A stretch of 42,442 nucleotides of DNA, from positions 1 to 42,442 of the forward strand of contig CANGIU010000012.1 of assembly GCA_947454255.1 (NCBI GenBank), given 5' to 3'. A model generated the notes under the pieces. It was not told the origin of the DNA, did no database searches, and saw nothing but the letters and a program-made list of their open reading frames with translations. The stretch comes from Micrococcales bacterium. GTDB lineage: Bacteria; Actinomycetota; Actinomycetes; Actinomycetales; Microbacteriaceae. Positions 9,936 through 23,577 of this stretch are shown piece after piece (position 1 is the first letter of the stretch; the number at the start of each line of letters is the position of its first letter). Made by a program: the position numbers and the translations under genes.

Positions 9936-9954
9936 GCACACAGATTTGCAACAT

Positions 9955-9970
9955 CCTCACTTCTGTGGGG
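9955..9970 (+). other. Six-pair hairpin after rpmJ
   Basis: CCTCAC (9955-9960) can pair with GTGGGG (9965-9970) around a TTCT loop, with one G-U pair. It is 19 bases after the rpmJ stop, where a terminator or attenuator would be expected. No T-tract follows (CATAACTAAATAAA), so it is not a canonical intrinsic terminator. Confidence 0.3.
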
Positions 9971-9992
9971 CATAACTAAATAAAACAACAAG

Positions 9993-10076
9993 GCAGTGTT
10001 CAGGATTTTATATCTGGCACCTCTCGAGAAGGCGAGAGCTTGAATTTATTCAAGACAACACTGCTGCAGACCTTCT
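9993..10076 (+). ncRNA. Structured leader RNA of the rpsM operon with predicted pseudoknot
   Basis: An outer helix of eight perfect pairs joins GCAGTGTT (9993-10000) to AACACTGC (10057-10064). Inside it are a weak arm (10001-10016), a hairpin CTCTCG/CGAGAG (10021-10026 with 10033-10038), and directly abutting it a hairpin CTTGAA/TTCAAG (10039-10044 with 10049-10054, loop TTTA). The six-base loop of the first hairpin, AGAAGG (10027-10032), is exactly complementary to CCTTCT at 10071-10076, so a pseudoknot to the 3' tail is possible. The ribosome binding site AGGAG follows at 10084-10088 and rpsM starts at 10096. The shape suggests a cis-acting site for ribosomal-protein feedback; this is inference from base pairing only, and I do not recognise it as a named family. 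Confidence 0.6.
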
Positions 10077-10095
10077 AAACAACAGGAGAAATCCA

Positions 10096-10476
10096 ATGGC
10101 ACGTATTGCCGGAGTCGATATTCCACGCGACAAGCGCGTTGAAATCGCCCTAACCTACATCTATGGAATCGGCCGCACACGCAGTGTGAAAGTTCTAGCC
10201 GACACCAACATCGATAAGAACACTCGAGTAAAAGATCTAACTGATGACCAGTTGGTTGCTATTCGTGACTACCTAGAAGGTAACTACAAAGTCGAAGGTG
10301 ATCTTCGTCGTGATGTTGCAGCTGACATTCGCCGCAAGGTTGAGATTGGTTCATACCAGGGTGTCCGTCACCGCAAGGGACTACCTGTTCATGGTCAGCG
10401 CACCAAAACTAACGCTCGTACTCGCAAGGGTCCAAAGCGTACTGTGGCCGGTAAGAAGAAGGCGGCACGCAAGTAG
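10096..10476 (+). CDS. rpsM: 30S ribosomal protein S13
   Basis: A 126-residue S13 in the head of the small subunit, contacting L5 and tRNA in the P site through its basic C-terminal tail. [30 protein letters not shown] and the signature [33 protein letters not shown] are present. AGGAG at 10084-10088 is the ribosome binding site. It is the first gene of the alpha operon and stands behind an unusually structured leader, so it is the likely point of translational feedback for this operon. Confidence 0.98.
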
Positions 10477-10519: not shown

Positions 10520-10930
10520 ATGGCAGCACCGAAGACTAAGGCAGCGGGTTCAGTTCGCAAGCCACGTCGTAAAGAAAAGAAGAACGTTACTCACGGACAG
10601 GCTCACATCAAGAGCACATTCAACAACACCATCGTGTCAATCACTGATGCAACCGGTGCTGTTATTTCTTGGTCATCATCAGGCGATGTTGGTTTCAAGG
10701 GTTCACGTAAGTCAACACCTTTCGCCGCACAGATGGCAGCAGAAGCTGCAGCTCGTAAGGCGCAGGAACATGGTTTGAAGAAGGTTGATGTTTTCGTAAA
10801 GGGTCCAGGCTCTGGTCGTGAAACAGCTATCCGTTCACTACAAGCAGCAGGTCTAGAAGTTGGTTCGATTTCAGATGTGACCCCACAGGCTCACAACGGA
10901 TGTCGTCCACCAAAGATCCGCCGCATCTAA
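10520..10930 (+). CDS. rpsK: 30S ribosomal protein S11
   Basis: A 136-residue S11 of the small-subunit platform. After a basic leader (residues 1-22) come [45 protein letters not shown] and the C-terminal [20 protein letters not shown], which are close to invariant. A GGAG ribosome binding site at 10509-10512 precedes the ATG by seven bases. In several bacteria rpsD follows, but here the next gene is rpoA after about 106 bases with no S4 frame. Confidence 0.98.
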
Positions 10931-10947
10931 GTTTTCAAAAACATATA

Positions 10948-10978
10948 ACTAAATAAACGCTGTTTAGTGGCCACTAAA
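10948..10978 (+). promoter_or_regulatory. Alternative-pairing palindromes in the rpsK-rpoA gap
   Basis: The hexamer ACTAAA (10948-10953) can pair with TTTAGT (10963-10968), which can instead pair with a second ACTAAA (10973-10978); the last two form the perfect 16-base palindrome TTTAGTGGCCACTAAA (10963-10978). The two pairings are mutually exclusive. A 13-base string ATAACTAAATAAA (10945-10957) at its left edge also occurs at 9972-9984, just before the rpsM leader. It may be a protein-binding operator, an RNA switch, or a processing site for rpoA mRNA. Confidence 0.4.
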
Positions 10979-11036
10979 TAGCAAACCCCAACAAACGAGA
11001 CATTAAATAGTGGATGTCTCCATGAAAGGAACCACA

Positions 11037-12038
11037 GTGCTAATTGCACAGCTACCAGTTCTGCACGAAGATATCGACAGCAATTTTCCTAACCGCGCAC
11101 GCTTCACTCTAGATCCACTAGAGCCTGGCTTCGGTTACACACTTGGAAACTCGCTACGTCGCACATTGCTTTCATCTATCCCAGGTGCTGCTGTTACCAG
11201 CATCAAGATTGAAGGTATCAGTCACGAATTCGGACCGATCAACGGTGTGAAGGAAGACGTTACCGAAGTTATCTTGAACGTCAAGGATCTAGTTGTTTCA
11301 TCTCACGCAGATGAGCCAGTTATCGTTCGCCTAAAGGCTGGCGTTGGTGAAGCTAAGGCTTCCGACATCGTTGCTGACGAGCGTGTAACAATCCACAACC
11401 CAGACCTAGTTATCGCAACTGTAAACAAGGGAACCCTTGACATGCAGTTGACCATTGAAGCTGGCCGTGGATATGTTCAGGCATCTCAGAACCGTCAGCC
11501 AGACATGGCTAACAACGGCATCATCCCAGTTGACTCAATTTACTCTCCTGTGTTGAAAGTTTCTTACCGTGTTGAGGCAACTCGTGCCGGTGAGTTCACA
11601 AACTTCGACAAGCTAATTGTTGACATTGAGACAAAGCCATCTATCACTCCTCGTGAAGCTGTTGCTTCTGCAGGAAAGACTTTGGTTAACCTATTCGGTC
11701 TAGCGGCAGCTTTGGATGAGAACGCAGAAGGTATCGACCTTCCTGCATCAGCAATCCCAGTTGATCTACCACCAGCACTTGCTAAGCCAATTGAAGAACT
11801 AGACCTAACCGTCCGTTCATACAACTGCCTAAAGCGCGAAGGTATTAACACAGTTAGCGAATTGATTAACCTAACCGAAGATCAGCTAATGAACATTCGT
11901 AACTTTGGTTCTAAGTCTGTTGATGAAGTGCGCGACAAGCTAACTTCAATGGGACTTCGCTTCCGCGACTCAGTTCCTGGTTTCGAAGCAGCATACTTCT
12001 CAGCCAACCCAAGCTTTGACGAGGACGACCAGGACTAG
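11037..12038 (+). CDS. rpoA: DNA-directed RNA polymerase subunit alpha
   Basis: Starts assembly of RNA polymerase by dimerising and binding beta and beta-prime. The N-terminal domain (about residues 1-225) has [23 protein letters not shown] and [19 protein letters not shown]; the C-terminal domain (about 255-320), which contacts UP elements and activators, has [33 protein letters not shown]. The frame is open from GTG 11010, but actinobacterial homologues begin (M)LIAQ, which matches GTG at 11037, and AAGGA (11026-11030) stands six bases before it. The resulting 333 residues equal the usual length. It lies between rpsK and rplQ with rpsD absent. Confidence 0.97.
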
Positions 12039-23178: not shown

Positions 23179-23577
23179 ATGGCTGATGCCAAAAACAAAT
23201 TCGATTACAGCAAACTAAATACCTTGGCTGTTGTCTCCCTTGCAAGTGCAATAACTTTATTCGGCGCTCCGGCAGCTGTCCTAACTGGCCATGTTTCTCT
23301 GGCTCAGTTAAAAGAAGACAATAAGAAAGGTCGTTGGATGGCCATTACAGGTCTTGTTTTAGGATACGTTGGCATCGCCTCTGCGATTCTCTTCACTGCT
23401 GTTGGCGTAATTGTTAGAGCTAGACATGGCTTTGGCTTCGACGATGGCAATCATTGGCAAAATGACTTCTTTGGTGGTCACAACCGTTTTGACGATGGCG
23501 GTGTAACACCTCAGCCATTCCCGACCGATCCAATGCCTGGGCCAACAATTCTTCCCCCAGTACCGGGAACTAACTAG
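23179..23577 (+). CDS. DUF4190-type small membrane protein
   Basis: A 132-residue protein with two hydrophobic segments (about residues 14-38 and 54-76). The first half reads NTLAVVSLASAI...GAPAAVLTGHVSLAQLKEDNKKGRWMAITGLVLGYVG, which matches the DUF4190 pattern of actinobacterial membrane proteins of unknown function. The last 50 residues are Gly/Asp/His/Asn-rich and then Pro-rich, probably an exposed flexible tail. AAGGAG (23167-23172) is a strong ribosome binding site. It is a single-gene unit between the inverted repeat and a terminator. No function can be assigned. Confidence 0.85.
   Translation: MADAKNKFDYSKLNTLAVVSLASAITLFGAPAAVLTGHVSLAQLKEDNKKGRWMAITGLVLGYVGIASAILFTAVGVIVRARHGFGFDDGNHWQNDFFGGHNRFDDGGVTPQPFPTDPMPGPTILPPVPGTN

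Follow-up and report, generated by a model that had tools for sequence, protein, structure and literature searches.

The closest described counterpart of the element reported here is Alpha_RBS (RF00140), the S4 site of the E. coli alpha operon, which occupies the same place, before rpsM of the same operon, and has a pseudoknot near the initiation region or including it. Candidate S4 r-leaders carrying GAAA/GUAA elements are also known before rpsM in other phyla, in Clostridia and Fusobacteriales; in the accessible text of Eckert and Weinberg 2020 (PMC7247131) these are the only groups with new leaders before rpsM, and S13 and S11 are not among the ligands in its table of newly found r-leaders (Table 1). 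Within the actinobacteria, the mycobacterial rpsO leader is likewise an r-protein 5' UTR, pseudoknot-capable and located before the start, but it belongs to another gene and another ligand, S15, and is set beside the present leader by its description (PMC8470358). In Mycobacterium tuberculosis a 216-nt rpsM 5' UTR is expressed and coordinate control of rpsM and rpoA has been suggested from sequence similarity; the accessible part of that report gives no structure, pseudoknot or ligand (Arnvig 2011, PMC3207917). Thirty ribosomal leader candidates were proposed by Narunsky 2024 (PMC11109978), with details in the supplements. Among the papers listed, our literature search found no structure for an actinomycete rpsM leader, a result limited by the possibility that this last supplement lists one, and for the literature searched such a leader is previously undescribed.

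The leader studied here lies between rpmJ and rpsM in a 42,442-nt stretch of DNA (the window). The first-pass annotation had not recognised its fold as a named RNA family, and a search of Rfam 15 with the window and 13 relatives agreed, no family reaching its gathering score. Among families that act near bacterial translation starts, Alpha_RBS and freshwater-2 came closest. Alpha_RBS scored 18.2 bits (gathering 38), the aligned letters being mainly the Shine-Dalgarno sequence (SD) and the rpsM start. The weak likeness to freshwater-2 RNA (RF02980), over two hairpins and the SD, reached 18.5 bits (gathering 49.9), a score that generic hairpins and an SD would explain. The present leader shares probable translational control with Alpha_RBS, but its pseudoknot is a helix, part of a junction, between a hairpin loop and a tail; this helix stops at 10076, short of the SD (10084), and the operon lacks rpsD. 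Gene position and operon are those of the Clostridia and Fusobacteriales S4 r-leaders; when these were compared by their published description (PMC7247131, as far as accessible), a 29-sequence alignment of the present leader had neither GUAA nor GAAA among its invariant columns 5' of the SD.

The rpmJ–rpsM leader and its fold

The window contains rpsM, rpsK and rpoA in that order (Table 1), under names that, like rpmJ, were assigned here and checked by tblastn against relatives. The name of rpoA and its start at 11037 rest partly on what we take to be the usual N-termini of RpoA. The mechanical ORF of this gene begins at GTG 11010 (11010-12038); with the likely start at GTG 11037 (MLIAQ...), the rpsK–rpoA leader would measure 106 nt. 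In accordance with the earlier placing of rpsD outside the operon, this gene was located on another contig of the same genome (C1, at about 103.5 kb). An upstream ORF in the rpmJ–rpsM gap was considered and rejected, the four possible ATG/GTG/TTG starts opening only 4-15 codons. A 16S rRNA gene was not found in the genome assembly to which the window belongs (G000); missing 16S rRNA genes are common in metagenome bins.

Table 1. Coordinates of the leader, its structural elements and the genes that follow it in the window.
Feature	Position	Strand	Basis or remark
rpmJ–rpsM intergenic leader, 160 nt	9936..10095	+	rpmJ end 9935, rpsM start 10096
AACTAAATA 5' of the structure	9974..9982	+	by eye, many relatives have AACTAAATA/AACTGAATA-type words 5' of P1
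P1, 5' strand, GCAGUGUU	9993..10000	+	minimum-energy fold and covariation
P2 hairpin, CAGG 10001-10004 / UCUG 10013-10016	10001..10016	+	fold and covariation
P3 hairpin CUCUCG-AGAAGG-CGAGAG, AC in front	10021..10038	+	stem 10021-10026/10033-10038; covariation
P3 loop AGAAGG, pseudoknot 5' strand	10027..10032	+	pairing and covariation
P4 hairpin CUUGAA-UUUA-UUCAAG	10039..10054	+	stem 10039-10044/10049-10054; covariation
P1, 3' strand, AACACUGC	10057..10064	+	minimum-energy fold and covariation
CAGA linker ahead of the tail	10067..10070	+	commonest tetranucleotide there, 73/134 loci
Tail CCUUCU, pseudoknot 3' strand	10071..10076	+	pairing and covariation
SD AGGAG	10084..10088	+	sequence
rpsM (S13), first gene 3' of the leader	10096..10476	+	AUG at 10096
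rpsK (S11)	10520..10930	+	ORF; name assigned in this analysis
rpoA	11037..12038	+	probable start GUG 11037 (protein MLIAQ...), from sequence

Re-reading the sequence confirmed the length of the gap and the positions of P1, P3 and P4 given by the first-pass annotation, as well as its claim that the P3 loop has its exact reverse complement in the tail. The tail does precede the ribosome binding site as described, at a spacing of 7 nt and not 8. Two near-identical flanking words, AAACAACAAGG and AAACAACAGG, had also been pointed out; they are present, but by eye the corresponding parts of the genus sequences are variable A/C-rich linkers and no conserved pair. A ninth P1 pair (G9992-U10065) is possible. 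The minimum-energy fold also contained P2, a weak hairpin that had gone unlisted, and with P2 present P1 closes a four-way junction. Folded as a single sequence, the region exceeded chance only moderately, with z scores of -2.24 (9936-10110) and -2.54 (9983-10095), as calculated with a program that cannot score the loop–tail pairing.

Comparison with relatives was decisive for the reality of the fold. Among 67 genomes of the genus, the window's own included, rpsM was detected in 47, and in 21 of the 22 with completeness of at least 90% and contamination of at most 5%; the gap before it measured 121-205 nt in the 47 loci. In an alignment of 29 genus sequences, 24 of the 33 pairs of P1-P4 and the pseudoknot had changed on both sides, and the covariation score was 0.417 versus 0.206 for shuffled alignments, a value reached in 0 of 500 shuffles, with slid structures scoring at most 0.137. 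The pseudoknot was paired in 97.6% of the cells of this alignment, and one genus member combined the loop AGAAUG with the tail CAUUC, a compensatory change. In a wider alignment of 58 sequences, which was fitted to P1-P4 and favours those helices, the pseudoknot being outside the model, both-side changes affected 29 of 32 pairs (all nine in P1) and the score was 0.511 versus 0.174 shuffled, slid structures reaching at most 0.113. P3 was paired in every cell of both alignments. The P4 columns were empty in 12 of the 58 sequences, and judging from these P4 seems to be absent in some relatives. Compensatory changes occurred alike in P1, P2, P3, P4 and the loop–tail helix. Across relatives, therefore, the helices and the pseudoknot of the proposed fold covary, the sequence showing the conserved structure with covariation support that is expected of an r-leader, and a conserved structured leader is in our judgement practically certain.

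Distribution in the class Actinomycetes

The sample was widened to the 80 top-ranking loci out of 580 named ones (those ranking highest were mostly from Microbacteriaceae, the family to which the window was therefore assigned), 20 of 294 further genomes of the family and 69 of 145 class genomes with rpsM. A covariance model built from the 29 genus sequences (R1) gave 58 matches at E <=0.05 in 95 chosen loci, each 5' of rpsM by eye comparison of coordinates; in an earlier run it had given weak matches away from rpsM in L117 (16.5 bits) and L032 (13.7 bits). R1 scored 95 bits on the window's locus, whose sequence is in the seed, and at most 18.4 bits in the rest of that genome. A later model (R2) matched 41 of 59 class genomes, six of which (G000, G359, G368, G369, G389 and G395) had contributed sequence to it and 35 had not. 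In all 41 the match preceded rpsM on the same strand, within 10 nt in 39 and at 14 and 57 nt in the other two, so that among the 59 genomes searched every matched one carried the element directly 5' of this r-protein gene. Three other places scored 22-23 bits, one of which (23.3 bits, E 0.006) lay inside an ORF of the window's own genome. Three of the 18 class genomes missed by R2 were without an rpsM match. Thirteen missed genomes were inspected, and a P3/tail candidate was found in all 13 by a picker that selects loop and tail jointly and in 9 by a stricter independent pick. R2 was also run on 30 loci that belong to other classes or whose class is uncertain; it gave a single match (L069, 34.1 bits), and none in the 13 Firmicutes loci among the 30. 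The Acidimicrobiia loci L066, L071, L079, L093 and L105 had gaps of 2-28 nt before rpsM, and the Paenibacillus loci gaps of 17-21 nt, which leaves no room for the leader element.

The joint picker had returned candidates for 120 loci out of 123, several of its picks being plainly wrong. Since it selects loop and tail together, we relied on counts in which P3 (a 6-bp hairpin preceded by AC) and the tail (judged from its context and distance) were each picked blind to the other. Such picks were obtained in 162 of 170 loci, seven lacking such a P3 and one such a tail. At least five Watson-Crick loop–tail pairs in fixed register were present in 134 of the 162 loci, and 27 of 52 distinct loop/tail combinations paired, versus a mean of 4.9 and a maximum of 12 in 2000 shuffles. 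The fixed-register 5-bp match was absent in the remaining 28 usable loci, and 25 of the 52 combinations were unpaired; in many of these cases, part of which were checked, P3 or the tail was picked wrongly. When 130 distinct combinations were compared, the tail made a run of 5.06 with its own loop versus 3.75 with the loops of other genomes, a value reached in 0 of 1000 shuffles. The helix itself took many forms, among them GAAGG:CCUUC, GGAGG:CCUCC, CCAGG:CCUGG, ACCGGG:CCCGGU, GACAGG:CCUGUC and CAGUGG:CCACUG.

The geometry of the 134 pseudoknot loci was recorded as well. The tail started 23-35 nt before the AUG (median 28), and the pseudoknot ended a median of 9 nt before the SD in the 130 loci with a recognised SD. 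With offsets of 3-9 nt allowed, the spacing from the end of P1 to the tail was 4-5 nt in 98 loci. P1 scored at least 18 in 81 of 134 loci versus 84 of 670 with shuffled upstream sequence, and it ran uninterrupted over at least 7 bp in 89. The element is present in many families of the class, beyond Microbacteriaceae.

Proposed mode of action

Paired mutations across many members of the class suggest that the rpsM leader is very probably a control element. The first-pass annotation had read it as an autoregulatory site whose ligand could be a protein other than S4, and covariation together with the place before rpsM supports this as to the kind of leader; the function is assigned by analogy with known r-leaders, from which translational autoregulation appears probable. 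The 5' UTR folds into a junction closed by P1, and the P3 loop pairs with the tail outside the junction, in most cases 4-5 nt past P1 and about 9 nt before the SD; covariation shows this fold, and comparison across relatives its conservation and place. A surplus ribosomal protein encoded by the operon might then bind and stabilise junction and pseudoknot, and the stabilised pseudoknot would occupy the landing site of the 30S subunit just 5' of the SD. Initiation at rpsM would be blocked or trapped, and that of the later genes likewise through coupling. Entrapment has been described for S4, and blocking is considered possible for mycobacterial S15 (PMC10931766, in the part accessible).

A different reading is that of a structured 5' UTR serving basal translation, mRNA processing or stability with no r-protein ligand, or sensing the 30S subunit directly. 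It would fit the SD-like character of the P3 loop, which is often GGAGG and contains GGAG, GAGG or AAGG in 92 of 100 distinct loop/tail/SD combinations from the 134 pseudoknot loci, and the r-protein ligand of the leader is itself a proposal. However, the loop letters change along with the tail (CCAGG, ACCGGG, GGGGG, GACAGG and AGUGG types), which indicates that an SD-like word is not required, and a position before r-protein genes is the classic setting of r-leaders; we hold this reading to be quite improbable.

It is more improbable still, to the point of being hardly credible, that the leader works through a switch in which the tail sequesters the SD, or as a transcription attenuator. Pairing of the window's tail with the SD is feasible (-2.8 kcal/mol in a local fold), but co-evolution of tail and SD was not found over the 130 combinations (3.446 with the own SD versus 3.453 with those of others; 584 of 1000 shuffles as high), which makes tail–SD pairing unlikely as a switch. 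P3 was flagged as terminator-like; it is followed by CTTGAATTTA, with no U-run, and one terminator-like site was found versus 0.5 expected.

Other words and hairpins recur around these genes. AACTAAATA stands ahead of both the rpsM and the rpoA leaders of the window (9974-9982 and 10947-10955), and words like AACTGAATA or AACTCAATA were seen by eye 5' of P1 in relatives. The 16S leaders of four genus members contain a similar word, GAGAACTCAACAG, and from this likeness AACTAAATA may, speculatively, be a boxA-like antitermination signal. The pattern AACTVAATA occurred 7 times in the window versus 1.16 expected, four times on the minus strand, and the copy at 23213 falls inside an ORF. Inspection by eye also showed, just before rpoA in many Actinomycetes (for instance L031-L053 and L203-L221), a hairpin that recurs and whose loop region is of the UCAUAUAGCGG type; the window has it at 10997-11020, 5' of rpoA, as GAGACAU-UAAAUAGUGG-AUGUCUC followed by GAAAGGA. 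A second copy of the rpsM leader before rpoA, an idea taken from the accessible part of PMC3207917, was discarded, this different hairpin being what the rpsK–rpoA and rpsD–rpoA gaps show by eye.

The ligand and the displacement of rpsD

In order to narrow down the ligand, the position of rpsD was recorded in the 134 pseudoknot loci: it was in the operon in 43, outside it in 72 and could not be assigned in 19. The leader therefore does not follow rpsD. An R1 search found no second copy of the leader before the rpsD gene of the window's own genome. Instead, 24 rpsD loci of the genus (L132 and L222-L244) share a different conserved leader, GUUGCC...GGCUG...UAGCC...CGUGGC, with GUUGCC, GGCUG, UAGC and GGC as conserved words of the upstream regions. 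A hairpin around UAGC kept at least 6 stem pairs in 18 of the 24, with 16 different 5' arms, versus 44 of 480 shuffled sequences. This structure was seen through a targeted hairpin test and a 9-sequence alignment; RNAalifold on a first alignment of all 24 upstream regions gave almost no consensus structure (-2.2 kcal/mol), and five of these leaders searched against Rfam gave no match. Pairing would be possible between GGCU and AGCC, which lie in the two loop regions. We regard the genus rpsD leader as a candidate S4 leader. Where rpsD follows rpsK and the rpsM gap is long, the rpsK–rpsD gap was short (median 28 nt, above 80 nt in 2 of 70 loci).

S4 could be the ligand of the rpsM leader too, as in E. 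coli and in the predicted leaders of Clostridia and Fusobacteriales, acting in trans in Microbacteriaceae from its gene elsewhere. Other leaders before rpsM have S4 as their accepted or predicted ligand (PMC7247131, as far as accessible). Besides the 43 pseudoknot loci, rpsD was in the operon in 55 of 63 loci from outside the family (L139-L201; seven without it and one that could not be assigned), and from both counts rpsD was probably in the operon ancestrally; moreover, S4 binds two dissimilar RNAs in other bacteria and could do so here. Against S4 stand the 72 pseudoknot loci in which the leader is kept without rpsD next to rpsK, the different leader shared by the 24 genus rpsD genes and the failure of R1 before the window's own rpsD, and the lack of GUAA in the invariant columns ahead of the SD. 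On balance S4 seems an unlikely ligand.

Since the leader is kept without rpsD in the operon and rpsD has a separate leader in the genus, S13 (first gene) or S11 (second) is likelier than S4, and one of these two is, by a slight preference, our choice of ligand. Gene content cannot fix the ligand, since L17 and often S4 are products of the operon too, and both S4 and L17 could still fill this role. A search for rRNA mimicry gave nothing convincing. When R2 was run on 16S regions from two genus members, its best score was 9.6 bits, for a match at the anti-SD end, and the longest words that six leader pieces had in common with one 16S measured 7-8 nt. One shared word, GAAGGCCUUC, whose 16S site we take to be helix 16, was set aside since the leader changes those letters by covariation elsewhere.

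Taken as a whole, the evidence moderately favours a cis-acting translational r-leader of the actinomycete rpsM-rpsK-(rpsD)-rpoA-rplQ alpha operon, for which S13 or S11 would be a likelier ligand than S4. The fuller reading, of an undescribed r-leader spread over the whole class with S13 or S11 as ligand, and of control that split when rpsD left the operon and came to have its own leader for S4, may or may not hold with about equal probability.

The alpha operon encodes S13, S11, the alpha subunit of RNA polymerase, L17 and often S4. With this leader, the way in which Actinomycetes balance these products becomes directly testable. Its pseudoknot letters, changing in pairs, supply compensatory variants ready-made by nature, and lineages whose operon lacks rpsD serve as a natural test of ligand identity. 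If the proposal is true, the old leader would have stayed with S13 and S11, while the departed rpsD has a separate S4 leader.
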